Shown: one piece after another, positions 5,121 to 26,305 of the stretch
Layout: every line of letters begins with the position of its first letter
Position numbering within the stretch: the first letter of the stretch is position 1
Source of the DNA: Candidatus Poseidoniaceae archaeon
GTDB taxonomy: Archaea; Thermoplasmatota; Poseidoniia; Poseidoniales; Poseidoniaceae
NCBI GenBank assembly: GCA_030747785.1
Contig: JASLKC010000010.1
Coordinates: 1-40,646, forward strand
Reading direction: 5' to 3'
DNA length: 40,646 nucleotides
Program-made: the position numbers and the translations under genes
Notes under the pieces: model-generated
Told to the model about the DNA's origin: nothing
The model's input: the letters and a program-made list of their open reading frames with translations, nothing else
Database searches by the model: none

Positions 5121-5578
5121 CACTGTTCACCTCCGGTTGCAATTCCTTCGAGTCCCATTTGGGTCTTCATGTGAGCGATGGAACGGTACGAGCCGCCCTT
5201 CGCCTTGAGGTAGTAGTGGCGGTATTGACTACGGTCAAGTGTGCCGCCTTCACGCATATCCTTGAGGGTATGACGTTGAGCACGTATTGTTCGCATCCAC
5301 TGTTGTTTGCGTGGGTTGCGAGCATTTGCACTACCTGAGCGCTTACCATGGCCCTTACGACGACCCTTGCGCTTCTGTTCGAGACGCTTGAGCGCACGAA
5401 CACGAGAAGTACCCTGGATTGCCTTTGCCTTGATCCATCCACTGTCGATAGCCTCACGGATGTCTTCCTTTTGGACAGACTGTGCGACTTGGTCTAGGTA
5501 GGATGGGTTAATCCAAATACGGTTTACACCGCACTTTAGAATCTGAGCTGCCATCTTCTTCTGATTAGTAATCTGCAT
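5120..5578 (-). CDS. rpl19e: Large subunit ribosomal protein eL19
   Basis: eL19 is an archaeal/eukaryotic 50S protein forming an intersubunit bridge. The 152-residue sequence shows the family start (QKKMAAQILKCGVNRIWINP), a basic helical hinge (KRKGRRKGHGKRSGSANAR) and the long C-terminal helix with RRHYYLKAKGG-like composition. Start and stop overlap the neighbouring genes by one base on each side (eL32 upstream, uL18 downstream). Confidence 0.97.
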   Translation of the reverse strand: MQITNQKKMAAQILKCGVNRIWINPSYLDQVAQSVQKEDIREAIDSGWIKAKAIQGTSRVRALKRLEQKRKGRRKGHGKRSGSANARNPRKQQWMRTIRAQRHTLKDMREGGTLDRSQYRHYYLKAKGGSYRSIAHMKTQMGLEGIATGGEQ

Positions 5579-6234
5579 CAGCGTCCCCTCCTGCGGTTTA
5601 GAACCCTGATTCCTAATTCATCAGCACGGGAATGGATGTTCTCACGCTTTCGTCCACCGACTGTCATACCGATACGAGCAGCCTGTGTTTCAGCGTCGAT
5701 TAATTCCAGATCACCGGAGTTGTATACCATTACCTCCTCAAATCCTGAGGGGTGTAGTCCTGCTGCAGCGTTGACCTTTCCGTGGCCAATACGTACAAGG
5801 GAACCACGGTACTTGTAATTGCGGCGTTGCTTGTTATCCATACCGTGTGGCTTTCTCCAGCCAGAGCGGGATAGGCGCTTGTAGCGGAACCATTCGGGTC
5901 TGCGGAAGGATGGTGTTGCTTTCTTTTGTGCTGCACGTAGTGCAAGAGCCTGCTTCAATTCATCACTGAGTACGGGCTTTTGGCGAGCAACGTGCTCTTC
6001 GACGATTTCTTCGTCATCCCAATCCTCATCATCTTCGAAATCATCTTCGAATTCTTCCTCAGATTCTTCCTCAGCCTCTTCCTCGGCCTCTTCTTCGACC
6101 GGGGCTTCCTCTGCGGCGCCTTCGTTCTCACTAAGGCGAGTGATAAGGTCTGCTTTCTTACCTGAAACAGGTAGACCTGCTTCCTTTAGCAACTCCTTGA
6201 GTTGTGCGACTGTCATCTTTTCATATTCTGCCAT
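5578..6234 (-). CDS. rpl32e: Large subunit ribosomal protein eL32 with N-terminal SAP-like domain
   Basis: The C-terminal half (from about residue 105, PSFRRPEWFRYKRLSRSGWR) is a standard eL32, ending EELGIRVLNRRR-like. In front of it are residues 5-40 (EKMTVAQLKELLKEAGLPVS then GKKADLITRLSEN), which match the helix-extended loop-helix pattern of a SAP domain, a nucleic-acid-binding module. A strongly acidic linker (about 41-80) of E and D runs follows. The ATG at 6234 is preceded by AGGAGGAATCTAG, giving a clear ribosome binding site for the long form. The extension is read as one open frame with no frameshift. It may guide assembly or bind other nucleic acid; its function is unknown. Neighbours are uL6 upstream and eL19, overlapping by one base, downstream. 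Confidence 0.93.
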   Translation of the reverse strand: MAEYEKMTVAQLKELLKEAGLPVSGKKADLITRLSENEGAAEEAPVEEEAEEEAEEESEEEFEDDFEDDEDWDDEEIVEEHVARQKPVLSDELKQALALRAAQKKATPSFRRPEWFRYKRLSRSGWRKPHGMDNKQRRNYKYRGSLVRIGHGKVNAAAGLHPSGFEEVMVYNSGDLELIDAETQAARIGMTVGGRKRENIHSRADELGIRVLNRRRGR

Positions 6235-6247
6235 CTAGATTCCTCCT

Positions 6248-6787
6248 TCAGACCTTCTCCAAGAGATATATTCCGTCCTGGAAGACACGACGGTCTCGGT
6301 TCTTGACGGTAGTACAGCGCTCGATGTTGGCTGCAGTCTGACCGACTGCTTCCTTGTCTATTCCGCTAACGACAACCTCAACCTTCTTCTGGACCTTGAC
6401 GTCCACACCAGGTAGGATGTTAGCGGTTCTTGGAACACGCTCTCCGAAATAATTGTTTACGACTAACTTGTTGCCCTTTACGGACATAGTCATTGGGAAG
6501 TGAGAATAGAATGCCTTCAGGTTGTAGGTGAAGCCATCTGTTACTCCTTTGATCATGTTGTTTAGGTGTGCTTTCCATGTACCAGCCAATGCCTTTTCCT
6601 TACGGCGTGGCAAATCAACACGAATCAGAAGACCTCCGCCCTCCTGAAATATGTTGATCTTGGCGTCAACGAAATCACGACTCAATGAACCACTAGGTCC
6701 AGTGATGGTTACATTTCCATCATCAAGAGTTGCTGTGACTCCTTCTGGAATCACTATATTGTGTTCGATACGATCCAATTTTACCAT
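6248..6787 (-). CDS. rpl6: Large subunit ribosomal protein uL6
   Basis: uL6 sits near the sarcin-ricin loop of the 50S subunit. The 179-residue sequence has the duplicated L6 fold: NIVIPEGVTATLDDGNVTIT at the start, then GVTDGFTYNLKAFYSHFPMT, and YFGERVPRTANILPGVDVKV in the second domain. Two adjacent ATG codons occur. I prefer the second (6787, MVKLDR), because it lies 6 nt after GAGGTG and gives the usual family length. The preceding uS8 stop is 10 nt upstream. Confidence 0.95.
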   Translation of the reverse strand: MVKLDRIEHNIVIPEGVTATLDDGNVTITGPSGSLSRDFVDAKINIFQEGGGLLIRVDLPRRKEKALAGTWKAHLNNMIKGVTDGFTYNLKAFYSHFPMTMSVKGNKLVVNNYFGERVPRTANILPGVDVKVQKKVEVVVSGIDKEAVGQTAANIERCTTVKNRDRRVFQDGIYLLEKV

Positions 6788-18143: not shown

Positions 18144-19004
18144 TCAACTGCCAATGACCAAAGCACGAGTGCGTAACTGGGCAAAACGGTCGGTATAATG
18201 ACCGAAAGCAAAGGCGATAATTTCAGTTAGGTTAACCACTGGAATTGCTGTATCTTTATTCGCCACTCTTCCAGCCTTACCTTGATAGGAATCAAGATTG
18301 GAATGAGAAAGAGTGCAAGCACTGACGATGACATTCGCACCTGCACCTTTAGCATCTGAAAGGACCTTTGCGGTCATCTTCATCACGCTATCACCAAGTG
18401 TGAGCAAAGATGGGTTTCCGACAGAGCGCGTTTTCGAGGAAAACTCGACAGGGCGTCCACCTAGAGCGGTGATCAACTGCTCCATGTAAGTAGGATTCCA
18501 GACATCGTCGCCACCACATGCTCCTTCTTTCTGCATGGATGGACCATAATAGCAAGCGATATCGAGGTCAAGTGGGTTAACTACAGCAGCCTCAACCTTG
18601 TCCAAGCCGATTTCATCGACCAGTACATGTAGAAGGTGATGGGTCTGAACTTCGCTAGCATCTAGTGACATTCCGGTAATCTTCTCAAGCACACGGTTGG
18701 CGCTTGCAAGAGCGATTGGATCATTCTTGAAAGTAGAAAGTGCGTCATGCATTACACCTTGAGAAGATGCACATGCTGTGATGATATCATGCCCGTTATT
18801 CTGAGCGAGTGCGAAGTTTCGAGCGTTGAGGGCTAATTGCAACTCAGGGTTTCCCTGTCTGATGACATCGCCACCATCGCTATTGTAGCCAACCATCTCA
18901 ATCAAATCGATGCCGAGGCTTTTGCAAAGCGGTTGGATGGTATCTTCTACCTCTTGGGAGGCTTGGCGTGCAACGTTGCCGGGATAATAGGAATACTTGA
19001 CCAT
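18144..19004 (-). CDS. HdrB/SdhE-like CCG-domain protein lacking the Fe-S ligand cysteines
   Basis: The 286-residue protein follows the HdrB (heterodisulfide reductase B) / archaeal SdhE fold throughout: a YYPG start, the ARNxALA helix (ARNFALAQ), a GKTR-like SSKTRSVG and a VSAC..SHSNLD end. The catalytic cysteines are gone. The PGC cysteine is N10, the CCG pair is S42-D43, and the first CxxC is C78-A-S-S81. In the second repeat the usual Cys is P155, the CCG pair is S194-V195, and the last CxxC is C230-T-L-S233. Such a protein should not hold the noncubane clusters of HdrB. I chose the ATG at 19004, 6 nt after GAGGTG, which overlaps the end of the upstream fusion gene. The two genes form one unit. 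Function is unknown; a structural partner of the fusion protein is my inference. Confidence 0.82.
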   Translation of the reverse strand: MVKYSYYPGNVARQASQEVEDTIQPLCKSLGIDLIEMVGYNSDGGDVIRQGNPELQLALNARNFALAQNNGHDIITACASSQGVMHDALSTFKNDPIALASANRVLEKITGMSLDASEVQTHHLLHVLVDEIGLDKVEAAVVNPLDLDIACYYGPSMQKEGACGGDDVWNPTYMEQLITALGGRPVEFSSKTRSVGNPSLLTLGDSVMKMTAKVLSDAKGAGANVIVSACTLSHSNLDSYQGKAGRVANKDTAIPVVNLTEIIAFAFGHYTDRFAQLRTRALVIGS

Positions 19005-19014
19005 CGCAAACACC

Positions 19015-20979
19015 TCAGAATCTCCTGTCCAATTCATTGAACATCGCTACCACTTCGTGGTGATTGTGAACCTTTGAATTGAACATATCTGGAATCTTAC
19101 CAATTCCAGCTGGTGGCATCAACATCCCCTGGAAGCCTCTCATCATCGGTCCACCATTTCGTGTGAACCCAAGCATCATCCTAAGTGAAACACCATTCAT
19201 GATGTTTGAACCAAGTCCAAGAGGGCCGAGGACCTGACGGTAAAGTGTGGTCTCGTTCACATTTCCAGATAGTTTGACCGAGCGTGCATACCATTTGACC
19301 ATGCGTCCACTCTTACCTGAGAATTTGAATTCCGAAAGTAATCTTGCACGGGCGGCATAGAGTTCATTTGCTACTTTTTCTCCATTTGCTCCATGCCTTG
19401 AAATTGCGCCTATGTCAGCTTCCGACCATACGCCGCCATTTCCTTGGAGTAGGGCATATATTTGGTTGGTCTGTGCTGTTCCACTGCGTGAATCCTGAGC
19501 ACGTATCCAGCGTTGCAATGCAACCGCTGGACCGGAATATGCACCATCAATACCGTAGGTATCAGACATTGCATTGAGTAGTGGGAAACTCGAAACATCA
19601 CCCATTTGGTGAAGTTTGGTTGCTTCGGACGAAGCCATAACGCCAATTGGTGCTCCACTTGCAAGGCGTTCTCCTTGACGTGGGTCGGCTTCCATCCAAG
19701 GCTTGGAAGATGACCTTTCATTCTCCCAAGAATCATTTGCTACAATCAGGTCCTTCAGGACTTCGTGACCGGGTAGTGGTTCAACGGACAGTAAGTCTCC
19801 ATCATCGATTAGATCGCAGATTCTTACCGTGTCAGCAAGGACAACTCGGCCATTTGCCATAACTCCGGTTAGTGGGTTTCCACCTGCGTGGCTTGAACTT
19901 CGGAATGATAGTGAACCATCTACTTCATTTTGAACTGCGGATAGTGCGTCCTGAATTGTAGCATGGCCTGGCAATGCACAAGCAATCGTATCATGGCCAG
20001 TTTCCCCTCGGTCAGGGTCATAGCGGAATACCTTGAGTGTTAGAGAAATCTCAGGCATGGAGATTGAAGCAGGTGTGAAGTCTCCCTCTACTCCTCCGTC
20101 ATCATCGTCGCCAGAGCCATATGCAATCATAGCCTCGACCATGTCTTCTTGGAAAGTACCAGAATCATCGACACATGCGATTCGGGGAAGTGCTTGAGCG
20201 ACCCACTGGGCCCATGGCTCGTCGAAATCGACATCGCAGAGTTGAATCTCTTGAACAATTGTTGCACCTAGGGCGGACAACTTGTCATTCCAATCGATTC
20301 CGGCCTTACAGTATTCATCGTAAGAGGAGTCGCCGATTGCACAAACCGAGAGGTGCACTCCACCAAGAGCGGGTTTTGCACCACAGGTTGCTTGCCACAA
20401 TGCTTCTGCATTATCTGGCATTTCTCCCTCACCCCATGTTGAAGTGATAATCAACAAGCGCTTGAGTGAAGGTAGGTTTGCAAGGTCGAACTCGTCCATA
20501 TCAACCACGCTGGCCTCAAGGCCATATGCTGCTGATAACTTGGCGGTCTTTTCTGCCAACCCAGTAGCATTTCCAGTCTGCGAACCGAAGAGAATGGTAA
20601 GTGCTCTATCTCCTGCAAGAACTCCGGCGAGTACGCCGTCGTCTGCAGATGGGGTTACTGCGGCGGCGACTGGTGCTGCCTCAACTGGAGCTTCTGCTTC
20701 GGCAGGCTCGTCGCCTGCTTCTGCAGATTCGTATTCGAACTTGATAATTTCAACGGGGCAAGCATCAGCAGCCTCTTCGATAATATCGGAATACTCGGCA
20801 CGGAATTCTTTCTTGATGGCGGAGCGGCCTGTATTCTGATCGAAATTACCATCCTCACGGACAGCGGCAGCGATGAAACTAGTATCATCAGTTACTGTGA
20901 ACACTTCGGGAAGAATATCTTGACATGCATCACATGTGATACAATCTTCTTCTATCCAGACCTTTGCTATGGTTGGCAT
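19015..20979 (-). CDS. Ferredoxin-flavodoxin-SdhB-like fusion; SdhB part lacks Fe-S cysteines
   Basis: A 654-residue cytoplasmic fusion. Residues 1-85 are a single-cluster ferredoxin (C13, C16, C19 and C74-P75). An Ala/Glu/Pro linker (86-115) leads to a flavodoxin of the diflavin-reductase type (about 125-270), with the FMN phosphate loop GSQTGNATG and the STWGEGEMPDNA and GDSSYDEYC motifs. Residues 310-550 align with the succinate dehydrogenase/fumarate reductase iron-sulfur subunit (LKVFRYDPDRGET, VEPLPGHEVLKDLIV, GVW near 516), but every expected ligand is replaced. The [2Fe-2S] cysteines are S363, N368, T371 and D383, and the C-terminal cluster motifs have no cysteine at all. The last 100 residues are unrecognised. 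I chose the ATG at 20979, 6 nt after AGGTG. It is cotranscribed with the HdrB-like gene. Electron flow from ferredoxin to FMN is plausible; the real partner and reaction are unknown. Confidence 0.82.
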   Translation of the reverse strand: MPTIAKVWIEEDCITCDACQDILPEVFTVTDDTSFIAAAVREDGNFDQNTGRSAIKKEFRAEYSDIIEEAADACPVEIIKFEYESAEAGDEPAEAEAPVEAAPVAAAVTPSADDGVLAGVLAGDRALTILFGSQTGNATGLAEKTAKLSAAYGLEASVVDMDEFDLANLPSLKRLLIITSTWGEGEMPDNAEALWQATCGAKPALGGVHLSVCAIGDSSYDEYCKAGIDWNDKLSALGATIVQEIQLCDVDFDEPWAQWVAQALPRIACVDDSGTFQEDMVEAMIAYGSGDDDDGGVEGDFTPASISMPEISLTLKVFRYDPDRGETGHDTIACALPGHATIQDALSAVQNEVDGSLSFRSSSHAGGNPLTGVMANGRVVLADTVRICDLIDDGDLLSVEPLPGHEVLKDLIVANDSWENERSSSKPWMEADPRQGERLASGAPIGVMASSEATKLHQMGDVSSFPLLNAMSDTYGIDGAYSGPAVALQRWIRAQDSRSGTAQTNQIYALLQGNGGVWSEADIGAISRHGANGEKVANELYAARARLLSEFKFSGKSGRMVKWYARSVKLSGNVNETTLYRQVLGPLGLGSNIMNGVSLRMMLGFTRNGGPMMRGFQGMLMPPAGIGKIPDMFNSKVHNHHEVVAMFNELDRRF

Positions 20980-22778: not shown

Positions 22779-25700
22779 TTACTGCTGGTTGTCCAGCCAT
22801 TGCTGGCCATAATGTTGCCACTGGTCCGTAGTCCAACCCGCAGGCAATCCGCCGTCAGGGATAGCGGGTCCAGCATCTGCCACTGGTGCAGGTGCTGGTT
22901 CTGGCGCTGATTCCGACACTGGTGATAGCGATGGTACTGGTGCTGGTCCGGCAGGAGGGGGAATCTCTGGGAGTGGTTTTTGCACTTCGATGACGGCGCC
23001 AGATGCACCGATTGTTGGGGCAGCTGCTACTGCACCATAGGTTGCAGAAATAGTATCTTCATATCCTTCTTGGCCCCAAGCCGGCTCTTCTTCTTCCTCT
23101 GAACCGTTGATTACGACTAGGAGGAACGCGAACAGTGACACGATAATTAGTGCACCAACAATCCAAATTGCTATGCCTACATAATCGGTATCAGAACCGC
23201 CGCCAATTGAATCATCTCCACCTTCACCTTCTACTTTGTAGAGGGAGATGTCCATATCTAATGATGCGGCATCAGTGACGGTGTTTGAGCGAGCCCAAAG
23301 AGTGACAAATGTGTCAACTTGAGTATCTTCGAGATTCAGTAGGGTAGATTCCTGAACATCGAAAACCACAGTGATTGTACGCTCTTCTTCTACATCGAGC
23401 CAGAAGTCTCGATCGCTGGAAGCGATTGCGCCACTAAACCAGCGATTGGATTCGTGTTGCTCCATCGACATTGATACGGATTGGCCCTCAGTATACTGAT
23501 TCCTAACACGGACAGATACGAGATATTCTCCACCCTCGGTAAAGACCGGCCTCTCGGTTGAAATGATTCTTAGCCAATTTTGTGAACCGACGAAGTAAGT
23601 ACAACTGCCATGACTACTGATGTTACCATCATTGACACTGGTGGCAATAACCTTGAGAGATAATTGGCCATCACTGCCCTCATCGAAACTGAATGTTACT
23701 GTGACATTGTGGGATGAGCCCGGTTCCAATAATGGGGTTCGATTGTCTATAATGTGCTCGAAGATTGCATTCATTCCCTCTGGAACATCCATGGACATCA
23801 TGAATCTGTCAGGCATGTTTCCATCATTTCTAACCTCAAATCGCATCGATTGGGCTGCATCTCCCGGGATATAGGATTGCTCGGCAATCTCATCGGAAAC
23901 ATATACTGCAGCGGTATCGGTAATTTCGATACTGATTGTGATTTGCTTGACTACCGATGGGTCATCGACGCTAGATGCATCGATTCGTGCAGTATAGAGT
24001 CCTGGATTAAGACCTACTGGCATTGGTAGATTGAGAATTATCGAAGTCTCGCCATCCCACGCATCGAGGATTGCAGTTTCAGTAGTGGATAGATATGCCT
24101 CTAATTTCCAATTGGATTGAACCATAGATAGGCTGAATTGCTCATCAGCATTTCCGAGATTAAACAAATCGACATAGACGCGCTGAGCAATCCCATTTGC
24201 TGGGCCACTAATCTGATAGGTCTCTGCAACCAATTCGAAATCGCGTAGAACAGGAACTAGAATCTTCTTTGAGATTACATCATTACCAAATAATGCTGAA
24301 CCACATGTTGGGCAAACAGCCCTCAAGGTGAATGGGATTTCACCGGGAGTTGAATCATCAGGCGCGGTTATATTGAGTAATAATTCGATGTCCTCACCCT
24401 TGCTCAGTGGGATTGGCATCTGTACAATACTTCCATTCAAGTCGGTGACAAATGCAACCCAGCCATCCTCTTGGAAATTAGAAGTGACTGTGAAGCCTGC
24501 TGCCTTATTACCCGAATTTTGTAATCTAAATGGTACATCGCTTGTATCACCTGGAACCATGCTGTCGGCAATCAGAGGTGCTGACGAAGACAGGTGAACA
24601 CCATACTGCTCAGTAATCGCTACGTCGGATGTAATACGACCTAGTTCACCTAGGTTGGTCCCCGCTACATCTTCCCACCAAACGCTCCATGATTGCTGCT
24701 GCACATCTGCACCAGCGGGAACGGATAGGTTGATCCAAATCTCTGTAGTATTTCCTCCAGGGATTGCTGGGAGAATTACACTTACGCCATGCTGGCTAGG
24801 GTGGTCAGAATCAATTCTGATCATTGGCAAACTCGGATTCATCCATGTATCATTCGTAACATTGGATGTGATTCTTGACATTGCTGGCATGTATCCATTA
24901 TTGGTAACCGAGCAATGCATTGCAATGATGGAATTTGGAGCTGCGGTATATCCGCCAACTGGGTCGTCACAAGAAATGTTCAGTGTGTATTCAGGTACCT
25001 TCTTGATACCAAACATCACGAAATCATCGATATGCATTCCACCTGAAGCACCTGAAGAATCTGAATGGAATAGCATTCCATATGACCAAGAATGGCCACC
25101 AAGAACATCGGTTGGGTCCCACGAAATATTGGTCCATGCTCCTGCAGTACTACCGGGGGAATGCTGTGTGAAATTATGAGCGATTGTGCTTGCTGGTGCA
25201 CCGTTACCTCTCCACATCTCAAACCCGACATTGTCTCCTGCTCCCATTACGCCCCAGGTCTGAGCATGCATCTGAACAGAAACATATGCTGCAGAGTTCA
25301 ACTGCACTTTGCACATAAACTGCCAATATGCTTCGGATAATTTACCATCTAATATCGCGTTTTGACCGCACTGATTGCTGGATTGTCCTAGAGAGAATGC
25401 ATAGATTAGACGGCTGTGAGAGGCTGAAGGATAGTCGCCACCATTGGAATGTCTCCAGTGGGCTGCACCATTTACTGCTCCACTGTTATCCTTCTGCCAG
25501 ATACTGTATCCGGTAGCTTCACCACCCTCGGCGGGATATTCACCGCCAAAGAAAGTAGGAACGCCTAATTGAGGACTTGTAGAAGTGTCACGAGGATCTC
25601 CTTCGGCCTCCATATTATCTTGGGAAATTGCAACAGGTAGTTCTCTATCCATGACATCGTTCTCATTACGATCGTCTTGAGCATTCATCACACTAGCACG

Positions 25701-26150
25701 GATAATGATACCACCGGATAACTCGTTGGTATCGACATCGAGTATCGAATGGGAAACCAATGCTGTCCAAGTGAACGAATCAGTATAGGATTGCCCACCG
25801 ATTAATGCGGTGGTATTCCATGTGGTTGAATTCATGATATAGCCAATTGGATGTACAATCTCAACCTTGACTTCTGCAGCCAAACCTGAGAACGCATTGC
25901 CTCCTCTCTTTACCTCAACATCGATGTAAACCTCATCGCCCTCTGCGATATACTCCATCACGCTGCCATCGGGTTGTATCCATTGATTGATTGCTGATGC
26001 ATTTGATACGGTAATTGTCCTAACAGAAAAGTCGTCATTTGCACCGCTGCGGCCCGAAACCGCAGCTTCCGCAGGTGCTGCAATGTAGACCAAGGTCTGC
26101 ATCAACATTAGGGCTACCAATAGTAGTGGAATCGACCTTCGCATGTGCAT
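22779..26150 (-). CDS. Large secreted, C-terminally anchored Ig-like repeat protein
   Basis: A 1123-residue surface protein of unknown function. A Sec signal peptide (RRSIPLLLVALMLMQTLVYI, residues 4-23, cleavage after AEA) is followed by a beta-rich N-terminal domain. Then come several CARDB/NEW3-like Ig modules with recurring NxGN turns (QNSGNKAAGF, FNLGNADEQF, RNDGNMPDRF). One membrane helix (about 990-1014) leads to an acidic and Pro/Ala-rich cytoplasmic tail. That tail ends in LPAGWTTDQWQHYGQQWL, a Trp/Gln-rich amphipathic motif. I chose the ATG at 26150, which lies about 28 bases after a TATA-like CATATG and has no ribosome binding site, consistent with a leaderless mRNA. An ATG two codons later is also possible. 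Confidence 0.8.
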   Translation of the reverse strand: MHMRRSIPLLLVALMLMQTLVYIAAPAEAAVSGRSGANDDFSVRTITVSNASAINQWIQPDGSVMEYIAEGDEVYIDVEVKRGGNAFSGLAAEVKVEIVHPIGYIMNSTTWNTTALIGGQSYTDSFTWTALVSHSILDVDTNELSGGIIIRASVMNAQDDRNENDVMDRELPVAISQDNMEAEGDPRDTSTSPQLGVPTFFGGEYPAEGGEATGYSIWQKDNSGAVNGAAHWRHSNGGDYPSASHSRLIYAFSLGQSSNQCGQNAILDGKLSEAYWQFMCKVQLNSAAYVSVQMHAQTWGVMGAGDNVGFEMWRGNGAPASTIAHNFTQHSPGSTAGAWTNISWDPTDVLGGHSWSYGMLFHSDSSGASGGMHIDDFVMFGIKKVPEYTLNISCDDPVGGYTAAPNSIIAMHCSVTNNGYMPAMSRITSNVTNDTWMNPSLPMIRIDSDHPSQHGVSVILPAIPGGNTTEIWINLSVPAGADVQQQSWSVWWEDVAGTNLGELGRITSDVAITEQYGVHLSSSAPLIADSMVPGDTSDVPFRLQNSGNKAAGFTVTSNFQEDGWVAFVTDLNGSIVQMPIPLSKGEDIELLLNITAPDDSTPGEIPFTLRAVCPTCGSALFGNDVISKKILVPVLRDFELVAETYQISGPANGIAQRVYVDLFNLGNADEQFSLSMVQSNWKLEAYLSTTETAILDAWDGETSIILNLPMPVGLNPGLYTARIDASSVDDPSVVKQITISIEITDTAAVYVSDEIAEQSYIPGDAAQSMRFEVRNDGNMPDRFMMSMDVPEGMNAIFEHIIDNRTPLLEPGSSHNVTVTFSFDEGSDGQLSLKVIATSVNDGNISSHGSCTYFVGSQNWLRIISTERPVFTEGGEYLVSVRVRNQYTEGQSVSMSMEQHESNRWFSGAIASSDRDFWLDVEEERTITVVFDVQESTLLNLEDTQVDTFVTLWARSNTVTDAASLDMDISLYKVEGEGGDDSIGGGSDTDYVGIAIWIVGALIIVSLFAFLLVVINGSEEEEEPAWGQEGYEDTISATYGAVAAAPTIGASGAVIEVQKPLPEIPPPAGPAPVPSLSPVSESAPEPAPAPVADAGPAIPDGGLPAGWTTDQWQHYGQQWLDNQQ

Positions 26151-26173
26151 CAACGAAATTGCGAACCATGTTC

Positions 26174-26213
26174 TGCATATGAATGTCCCCTTCCCTTGTC
26201 CCCGTAGGGGACA
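26174..26213 (-). promoter_or_regulatory. Leaderless promoter with upstream palindrome
   Basis: On the minus strand TTCATATGC (near 26175-26183) is positioned correctly for transcription starting at or next to the ATG at 26150. Directly upstream, TGTCCCC and GGGGACA form a perfect seven-base inverted repeat around GTA (26197-26213). This layout resembles an archaeal activator or repressor site flanking the TATA box. Confidence 0.45.
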
Positions 26214-26305
26214 GGGGGCGCATTCACAAAGAGGGTGTAGCAATGGCCTTCTGAACCACTTTTACAGGGGCAACCTTTGAGAGAGGTGCGAGGCCGGACA
26301 GGAGC

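Follow-up and report, generated by a model that had tools for sequence, protein, structure and literature searches.

A succinate dehydrogenase/heterodisulfide reductase-like protein pair of Poseidoniales with lost iron-sulfur ligands and a tethered ferredoxin-flavodoxin

The locus

A stretch of 40,646 nucleotides from contig JASLKC010000010.1 (assembly GCA_030747785.1) of a Candidatus Poseidoniaceae archaeon, referred to below as the window, carries two adjacent minus-strand open reading frames (ORFs) at 19015-20979 and 18144-19004 (or 19037). The first encodes a ferredoxin domain (Fd) and a flavodoxin domain (Fld) fused to a homologue of the succinate dehydrogenase subunit SdhB (here SdhB'); the second encodes a homologue of SdhE and of the heterodisulfide reductase subunit HdrB (here HdrB'). 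Both ORFs are as described in an original prediction made from the sequence alone, and together they present a pair of proteins that is still recognisable as part of an iron-sulfur (Fe-S) complex with very few of the Fe-S ligands in place. Residue numbers follow the open frames of 657 amino acids (aa; fusion) and 297 aa (HdrB'), which adds 3 and 11, respectively, to the numbering of that prediction (Table 1). Genomes, contigs, loci, genera and families are cited by handles beginning with G, C, L, g and f.

Table 1. Features of the fusion gene and of HdrB', in window coordinates
Feature	Position	Strand	Remarks
Fd-Fld-SdhB' fusion gene	19015..20979	-	654 aa from ATG 20979; 657 aa if GTG 20988
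Single-cluster ferredoxin domain (Fer4_13)	20740..20961	-	Four Cys: C16, C19, C22, C77
Flavodoxin domain, CysJ/P450-reductase-like	20221..20595	-	Loops SQTGN, STWGEGEMPDN, GDSSYDEYC retained
SdhB' core: [2Fe-2S] fold and former dicluster domain	19309..20046	-	All 12 Cys ligands substituted
SdhB' C-terminal tail, residues 563-657	19018..19302	-	Y567, Y583, R584, L592 covary with CCG1 cysteine loss; exchanged with HdrB' in G120, G123, G124
TGAGGTG, fusion stop over HdrB' Shine-Dalgarno	19011..19017	-	Translational coupling suggested
HdrB' (SdhE/HdrB homologue)	18144..19004	-	Frame from ATG 19037 = 297 aa; CCG1 N21/S53/D54/C89/S92; CCG2 P166/S205/V206/C241/S244

The best start for the fusion is ATG 20979, which has AGGTG 6 nt upstream. 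HdrB' most likely starts at ATG 19004, behind a GAGGTG that overlaps the TGA stop of the fusion, rather than at ATG 19037. At 19011-19020, in TTCTGAGGTG, the fusion stop codon and the HdrB' Shine-Dalgarno sequence have bases in common. The comparison set used throughout consists of 131 distinct HdrB' sequences from 183 loci with both genes, partial genes excluded, and is deliberately enriched for genera g6, g7, g8, g10, g11, g17 and others; the fusion stop is TGA in 111 of these 131 loci and reads TGAGG in 78. The overlap of stop and Shine-Dalgarno suggests that translation of the two genes is coupled.

Two ways of making one polypeptide of the pair were considered and set aside. Programmed read-through of an in-frame TGA is rejected because the stop overlaps the Shine-Dalgarno sequence and the frames of the two genes differ in 59 of 131 loci. 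A single protein is seemingly encoded by a joined ORF in G048, which has an ambiguous codon at the expected stop, and by a 997-aa ORF without such a codon in G172 (L117, 4841-7831), in which the end of the tail is replaced. The latter may be a true fusion or a frameshift; in the other g14 locus inspected (L116) the genes overlap in different frames.

Homology of the two proteins

The homology to SdhB and to HdrB/SdhE that the original prediction had proposed is borne out by significant profile matches. The fusion matches Fer4_13 (6.4e-9), Flavodoxin_1 (3.9e-28), Fer2_3 (4.5e-11) and dhsB (5.6e-13). HdrB' matches MFR_anch_SdhE (2.7e-34) and CoB_CoM_SS_B (3.2e-31), both well under the curated cut-offs, and Pfam CCG in the first repeat only (3.6e-4). 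Against HdrB proteins of the PDB, homology extends over the whole length (2.5e-25), and an AlphaFold2 model of the window HdrB' (predicted local distance difference test, pLDDT, 90.2; predicted TM-score, pTM, 0.88) has HdrB chains as its six best PDB matches, with query-normalised TM-scores (TMq) of 0.86-0.88. The NCBIfam model for type-E complex II, NF042965, gives 119 bits against a cut-off of 500 that is reached in 0 of 194 genomes of the phylum, intact relatives included. Pfam HdrB-like_C has no match in the window genome or in 14 controls.

HdrB' thus shares its fold and whole-length homology with the HdrB of CoB-CoM heterodisulfide reductase (PDB 5odc, 8rvu, 9sfi), but differs in that the 10-cysteine motif is down to two cysteines in the window, and in that no HdrA or HdrC is recognised beside it (the rest of the genome was not searched for these). 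At the N-terminus of the window fusion, all four ferredoxin cysteines are present, as are the flavodoxin loops, which we take to be involved in binding flavin mononucleotide (FMN). With these loops and the Pfam match, the domain is of the FMN-binding type, and FMN binding is predicted.

Matches to the fusion agree with a placement of the window genome in the Poseidoniaceae (Marine Group IIa). In named genomes they come from 53 loci, 48 of them titled Poseidoniales, Poseidoniaceae or Euryarchaeota/euryarchaeote; the remaining five are bacterial and match in the ferredoxin domain only. None of 40 stretches of viral contigs is a relative, and plasmids gave just two ordinary HdrB-like matches.

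Loss of the cluster ligands

The ligand columns of SdhB were read from an alignment with cysteine-intact type-E SdhB proteins. Over the 131 homologues the 12 columns hold a cysteine in 8 of 1572 cells, and the window has 0 of 12. Where the original prediction had the four [2Fe-2S] cysteines lost and no cysteine in the C-terminal cluster motifs, the alignment agrees, placing S366, N371, T374 and D386 at the former, and V465, F468, L471, S475 and E523, I526, I529, G533 at the latter. Across the homologues, Val, Tyr and Leu are the commonest residues in the first three columns of the second cluster, and the fourth column is always Ser; the third cluster starts with an equally invariant Glu, followed most often by Leu, Ile and Gly. 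The first [2Fe-2S] column varies widely.

In the window HdrB', eight of the ten HdrB ligands are gone. The CCG pairs have become Ser-Asp (S53-D54) and Ser-Val (S205-V206) and both CxxC motifs CxxS, again as predicted, and the first cysteine of each CxxC (C89 and C241) turns out to be near-invariant. The first site, CCG1, is intact (CCCCC) in 21 of the 131 sequences, a set in which genera of this kind are over-represented by choice, and erased in 109. The remaining one, L273 of G162, reads CCCSC: position 89 is Ser, the other four CCG1 cysteines remain, and the SdhB' tail is of the intact type. The second site, CCG2, has positions that we take to correspond to C153, C193, C194, C231 and C234 of HdrB. 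It is empty in 131 of 131 apart from the first CxxC cysteine, reading P/S/A/V/T166, S205, V206 (A or I in seven), C241 (one X) and S/A244. In HdrB numbering, Cys81 and Cys234 are named in the accessible part of PMC13083937.

Could metal still be bound without these cysteines? Clusters might be held by Ser, Asp, Asn, Glu or His, or there might be a mononuclear metal, Zn bound by C89/C174/C241/H245 being one example. Two former ligand columns are invariant (S475 and E523, 131/131), N21 occurs in all 109 CCG1-erased copies, S53 in 103 and G53 in six, and H245 is conserved, all of which would suit such ligation. Five of the 12 SdhB ligand columns, however, most often hold Val, Tyr, Leu or Ile, which suits packing, and the first [2Fe-2S] column is highly variable. 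Retained metal is therefore improbable, and in this window SdhB' and HdrB' are, with high confidence, predicted to be cluster-free.

The cysteines that remain in HdrB' raise another possibility, that of an iron-free disulfide/thiol oxidoreductase in which C89 and C241, perhaps with C174, form a redox dithiol/disulfide reduced by the tethered flavodoxin. All 109 erased copies retain C89 and 108 of them retain C241 (the last one being X), though the other ligands are gone, except for C54 in 36. C174 is found in 99 of 109 erased copies vs 8 of 21 intact ones and is absent in three relatives from family f6 (see below). In the mycobacterial protein EtfD, according to the part of PMC13083937 available, His583, lying between the first-site ligands Cys581 and Cys584, ligates the second cluster, so that in this fold the two sites have their loops in contact, and the loops carrying C89 and C241 in HdrB' should be close. 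A dithiol site formed by C89 and C241 is possible on this basis. The two residues could equally be kept for packing, position 89 is Ser in L273, and no disulfide substrate is known; as an account of the whole pair, an oxidoreductase must be considered doubtful.

Retention and selection

HdrB' was found in 150 of 170 genomes of the family, including 21/21 that are at least 90% complete, and in 256 of 292 genomes of the Poseidoniales, including 35/35 at that completeness (the two genome sets overlap). Another order of the same class, f3, presumably Marine Group III, gives weak partial matches in just 3 of 21 genomes. In the 79 loci examined, fusion and HdrB' are adjacent and co-directional, and in nearly all of them the pair is flanked by the thermosome gene on one side and by a convergent gene for a Hef-like protein on the other, with ribosomal protein genes nearby; the exceptions are an inverted thermosome gene in L134 and some loci that are cut short.

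Ratios of non-synonymous to synonymous substitution (dN/dS) were obtained by Nei-Gojobori counting on close pairs, from 170 locus pairs tried, with incomplete genes and dS outside 0.02-2.5 dropped. HdrB' has a median of 0.035 (maximum 0.100 over 116 pairs), the SdhB' half one of 0.042 (maximum 0.141 over 141 pairs) and the flavodoxin one of 0.054 (maximum 0.253 over 76 pairs); that of the thermosome is 0.018 (maximum 0.051 over 79 pairs).

With 8/10 HdrB' and 12/12 SdhB' ligands gone in the window copy, a pseudogene or relaxed remnant might be suspected. It is refuted by the retention of the pair in all 35 near-complete genomes and by medians near 0.04 over 116 and 141 close pairs, and its probability is practically nil. 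Order-wide retention, conserved position, strong selection at dN/dS ~0.04 and losses in both partners instead uphold the original proposal of a retained but repurposed complex.

The original prediction also had no SdhA or SdhD gene adjoining the pair, which is the case. Around the pair are genes for a thermosome subunit, for a helicase resembling Hef and for ribosomal proteins L3 and L4, names that come from reading the sequences, with no family search behind them. Adjoining the thermosome gene is a very large ORF (22779-26243), conserved in position in most loci; judged by eye, it may have a signal peptide as well as a transmembrane segment at the C-terminus.

Origin and order of loss

The nearest cysteine-intact relatives found lie in Thermoplasmatota family f6 (G452, G417, G340), where SdhA, SdhB and SdhE are neighbours with their ligands present. 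L131, a CCG1-intact copy of Marine Group II (MGII), is 38-40% identical to these relatives, and the C-terminal tail of the f6 SdhB aligns with that of the MGII SdhB'. The ancestral type is, from these comparisons, a type-E SdhA-SdhB-SdhE cluster as seen in f6. Like type-E complex II and 8-methylmenaquinol:fumarate reductase (SdhABE, MfrABE), the pair has SdhB followed side by side by an SdhE/HdrB-like subunit, and it shares its extended SdhB tail with the type-E SdhB of f6. It is unlike them in that no SdhA is recognised in the locus, SdhB' is without cluster ligands, CCG2 is empty, and SdhB' carries a fused Fd-Fld (or Fld-Fld).

A separate SdhA-SdhB pair is encoded on another contig (C7) of the window genome, which agrees with the canonical complex II that MGII has according to the accessible portion of Tully 2019 (PMC6336850). 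This pair, together with the SdhB fold kept in the joined model described below, would allow for an assembly or regulatory decoy, which mimics SdhB-SdhE, binds SdhA, a chaperone or the complex II encoded elsewhere, and carries no electrons. The tethered Fd/Fld speaks for electron transfer, as it keeps its FMN loops and cluster ligands, and where the Fd is gone, a different electron carrier has usually taken its place (19 fusions, vs 3 in which it is simply missing). To our knowledge, no decoy function needs a flavodoxin, and a decoy seems a poor candidate.

SdhB' and CCG2 are empty in 131/131 sequences. The SdhB clusters and CCG2 were therefore emptied in or before the common ancestor of the Poseidoniales, and CCG1, as judged from its distribution, later, in most lineages. 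The claim that both partners are degraded alike thus needs refinement for CCG1, which survives in 21/131 and was lost later elsewhere.

The N-terminal carriers vary in turn. The 95 distinct complete fusions comprise 71 of Fd-Fld type with a CxxCxxC motif, 19 of Fld-Fld type, three with Fld only, one with Fd only and one that is Fd-Fd-Fld. The partner could be scored for 88 of them (11 CCG1-intact, 76 erased, and L273, which keeps its Fd): 22 of the 76 fusions with an erased partner are free of Fd (19 with a second flavodoxin, 3 with the Fd missing) vs 0/11 with an intact one, counts that are not independent of descent. Where Fld-Fld or Fld alone is combined with a CCG1-erased HdrB', no recognisable Fe-S ligand set is left. 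On the best tree, built for 37 chosen loci of which five are missing from it, the N-terminal Fld copies fall into three separate clades with three label changes, two of them forced by starred branches, and the second Fld probably arose more than once. The original description of an active ferredoxin-flavodoxin thus suits the window, where ligands and loops are present and activity is predicted, and does not extend to the 22 of 95 fusions without ferredoxin or the one without flavodoxin. This last case (L150 of G179, 5312-6724, 471 aa) is Fd-SdhB' alone, the opposite of the Fld-only L114, L124 and L125.

Substitution of ferredoxin by flavodoxin under iron limitation is described in the available parts of PMC5322553 and PMC10287166. 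The replacement of Fd by Fld in 19/95 fusions resembles it, with the difference that here the swap takes place within a single polypeptide of a complex already without its other clusters.

Exchange of the tail and HdrB'

The SdhB'-half tree and the flanking-gene tree both separate the two families. The HdrB' tree unites the 32 erased copies, whichever of the two families they come from, in a single clade (support 100/99) and leaves the eight CCG1-intact copies outside, a conflict with the other two trees that rules out simple vertical descent of HdrB'. Mapped on the flanking-gene tree, the CCG1 state needs five changes, at least four of them forced by starred branches. Recombination at the locus, as read from the sequences, accounts for at least one tree conflict, to which long branches or parallel loss could contribute.

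In G120 the segment from the SdhB' tail through the end of HdrB' resembles genus g5, which is of the erased type; the SdhB' core and the part downstream resemble the sister genome G122, in which CCG1 is intact. G123 and G124 are mosaics of the same kind, matching G122 in the thermosome (97-98%), core (85%) and Hef-like gene (81-82%; ribosomal protein L3 is at 99% in G124 and off the G123 stretch), and g5 in the tail (93%) and HdrB' (88-89%). Their N-terminal Fld is nearest to the Fld-Fld forms of g5/g1 (77-79%) and the other Fld to g9 (84-85%). A chimeric contig is unlikely because the three assemblies agree. In these loci (L141, L268 and L269 of G120, G123 and G124) a native SdhB' core lies between an imported tail plus HdrB' and imported flavodoxin modules; both ends are of the iron-free form in G123 and G124, and the contig of G120 does not include the N-terminal part.

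The six SdhB' positions that best separate the CCG1 states (567, 583, 584, 592, 594 and 628) are all in the tail. All 109 erased copies have Y567, Y/F583, R584 and L592; all 21 intact copies have F567, A/P583, A/G584 and M/A/V592, and L273, with F, T, A, A, groups with the intact type. Covariation of the tail with the CCG1 state and the exchange of tail and HdrB' as a unit suggest that the two bind each other, and that small tail residues were replaced by bulky ones when the CCG1 cluster went. Y583-R584 perhaps fill the vacated CCG1 site, if they are placed as we suppose.

Structure models

SdhB' and HdrB' were modelled with AlphaFold2 as one joined chain from G034, with TGA read as Gly as an artificial one-residue link and a 63-row alignment (pLDDT 82.0, pTM 0.83). 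In Foldseek this model matches HdrB and SdhB chains, and, across both halves, PDB 3KWL, an uncharacterised Helicobacter pylori protein, with a target-normalised TM-score (TMt) of 0.72, a root-mean-square deviation of 7.3 and 635 alignment columns; HdrB' alone gives TMt 0.44. In 3KWL the two halves have a relative placement similar to that in the artificially joined model. Sequence similarity is very weak (E 0.001 and 1.3 with the two profiles), and 3KWL is a single bacterial chain without Fd/Fld within the match, compared here by fold and not by cysteines or metal. It is listed as of unknown function in the accessible part of PMC3397514. The scaffold may, on these models, have a precedent in 3KWL.

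A more distant likeness is that to EtfD of mycobacteria (PDB 9ojn), which, in the available excerpt of PMC13083937, is a CCG-domain protein of an aerobe with altered cluster ligands that takes electrons from a flavoprotein. EtfD is a membrane protein that retains two clusters, one a linear [3Fe-4S] and the other a noncubane [4Fe-4S], and its fold match to the joined model is weak.

Discussion

The exchange of tail and HdrB', the covariation of the tail with CCG1, the overlap of stop and Shine-Dalgarno, the pTM of 0.83 and the match to 3KWL make it very likely that the fusion and HdrB' form one complex. The complex would have as its basis the SdhB-SdhE pair left over from a type-E complex II that lost SdhA, with the SdhB' tail binding HdrB' and tail changes such as Y583-R584 accompanying the loss of CCG1, perhaps by filling its place. 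The clusterless SdhB' core and HdrB' would now act as a docking scaffold that holds the Fd-Fld (or Fld-Fld) wire, and low-potential electrons would travel via FMN either to a partner or into the pocket of HdrB'. Repeated removal of iron would be an adaptation that spares iron and avoids oxygen sensitivity. A cluster-free Sdh/Hdr docking scaffold that delivers electrons from tethered Fd/Fld and drifts towards an iron-free state is, with a probability of roughly 0.55, the best overall explanation. Of its parts, electron delivery by Fd/Fld on this scaffold has an even chance of being right, and the same balance applies to iron sparing as the driver of iron removal. A scaffold that positions Fd/Fld is favoured over a dithiol site reduced by FMN.

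Several observations weigh against the docking scaffold. The covariation of tail and CCG1 stems from few evolutionary events, as does the association of Fd with CCG1, and linked changes may come along with an exchanged module. The link in the joined model is artificial, pLDDT falls below 50 at 123-125, 292-331, 344-349 and 360-364 and is ~66-67 around the Y-R motif, and the deviation of the 3KWL match is large. One of the 95 fusions (L150) has ferredoxin and no flavodoxin. The housekeeping-like neighbours give no clue to an electron acceptor or a reaction. Nor is there a general avoidance of CCG proteins or iron, because the window genome (G000) has retained CCG and Fe-S proteins elsewhere. 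Two of its other genes, on contigs C24 and C46 (L225, L226; frames of 682 and 931 aa), have CCG matches over the Pfam cut-off.

A bolder version would have MGII turn a Hdr/complex-II relay into an iron-free flavoprotein machine, in which C89/C241 replace two noncubane clusters and a tethered double flavodoxin feeds low-potential chemistry of the thiol-disulfide or a related kind in seawater that is oxic and poor in iron, with iron-containing and iron-free end modules swapped between lineages by recombination. Although it draws these features together, we consider this version unlikely.

The accessible text of open-licence PMC papers on Poseidoniales/MGII with heterodisulfide reductase, flavodoxin, succinate dehydrogenase or iron (including PMC11237513, PMC13096325, PMC6336850 and PMC9723583) holds no description of the pair, and for 3KWL, Campylobacter HdrB-like proteins and cluster-free Hdr nothing further on the topic was among the matches listed, as far as their available parts go. 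The view that such a scaffold is undescribed is thus not contradicted for these archaea in open-licence papers, but is qualified by the solved H. pylori structure that matches both halves.

The pair offers a natural series, in abundant uncultured archaea of the ocean, of an Fe-S complex that sheds its clusters one by one with its fold and partners under strong selection. Close relatives in each state (Fd with CCG1, Fd only, and Fld-Fld with none) make the idea of a metal-free remnant of an electron-transfer complex testable. The pair may help to explain the uncharacterised structure 3KWL, and it is a concrete genomic trait with which the iron economy of MGII can be tested.

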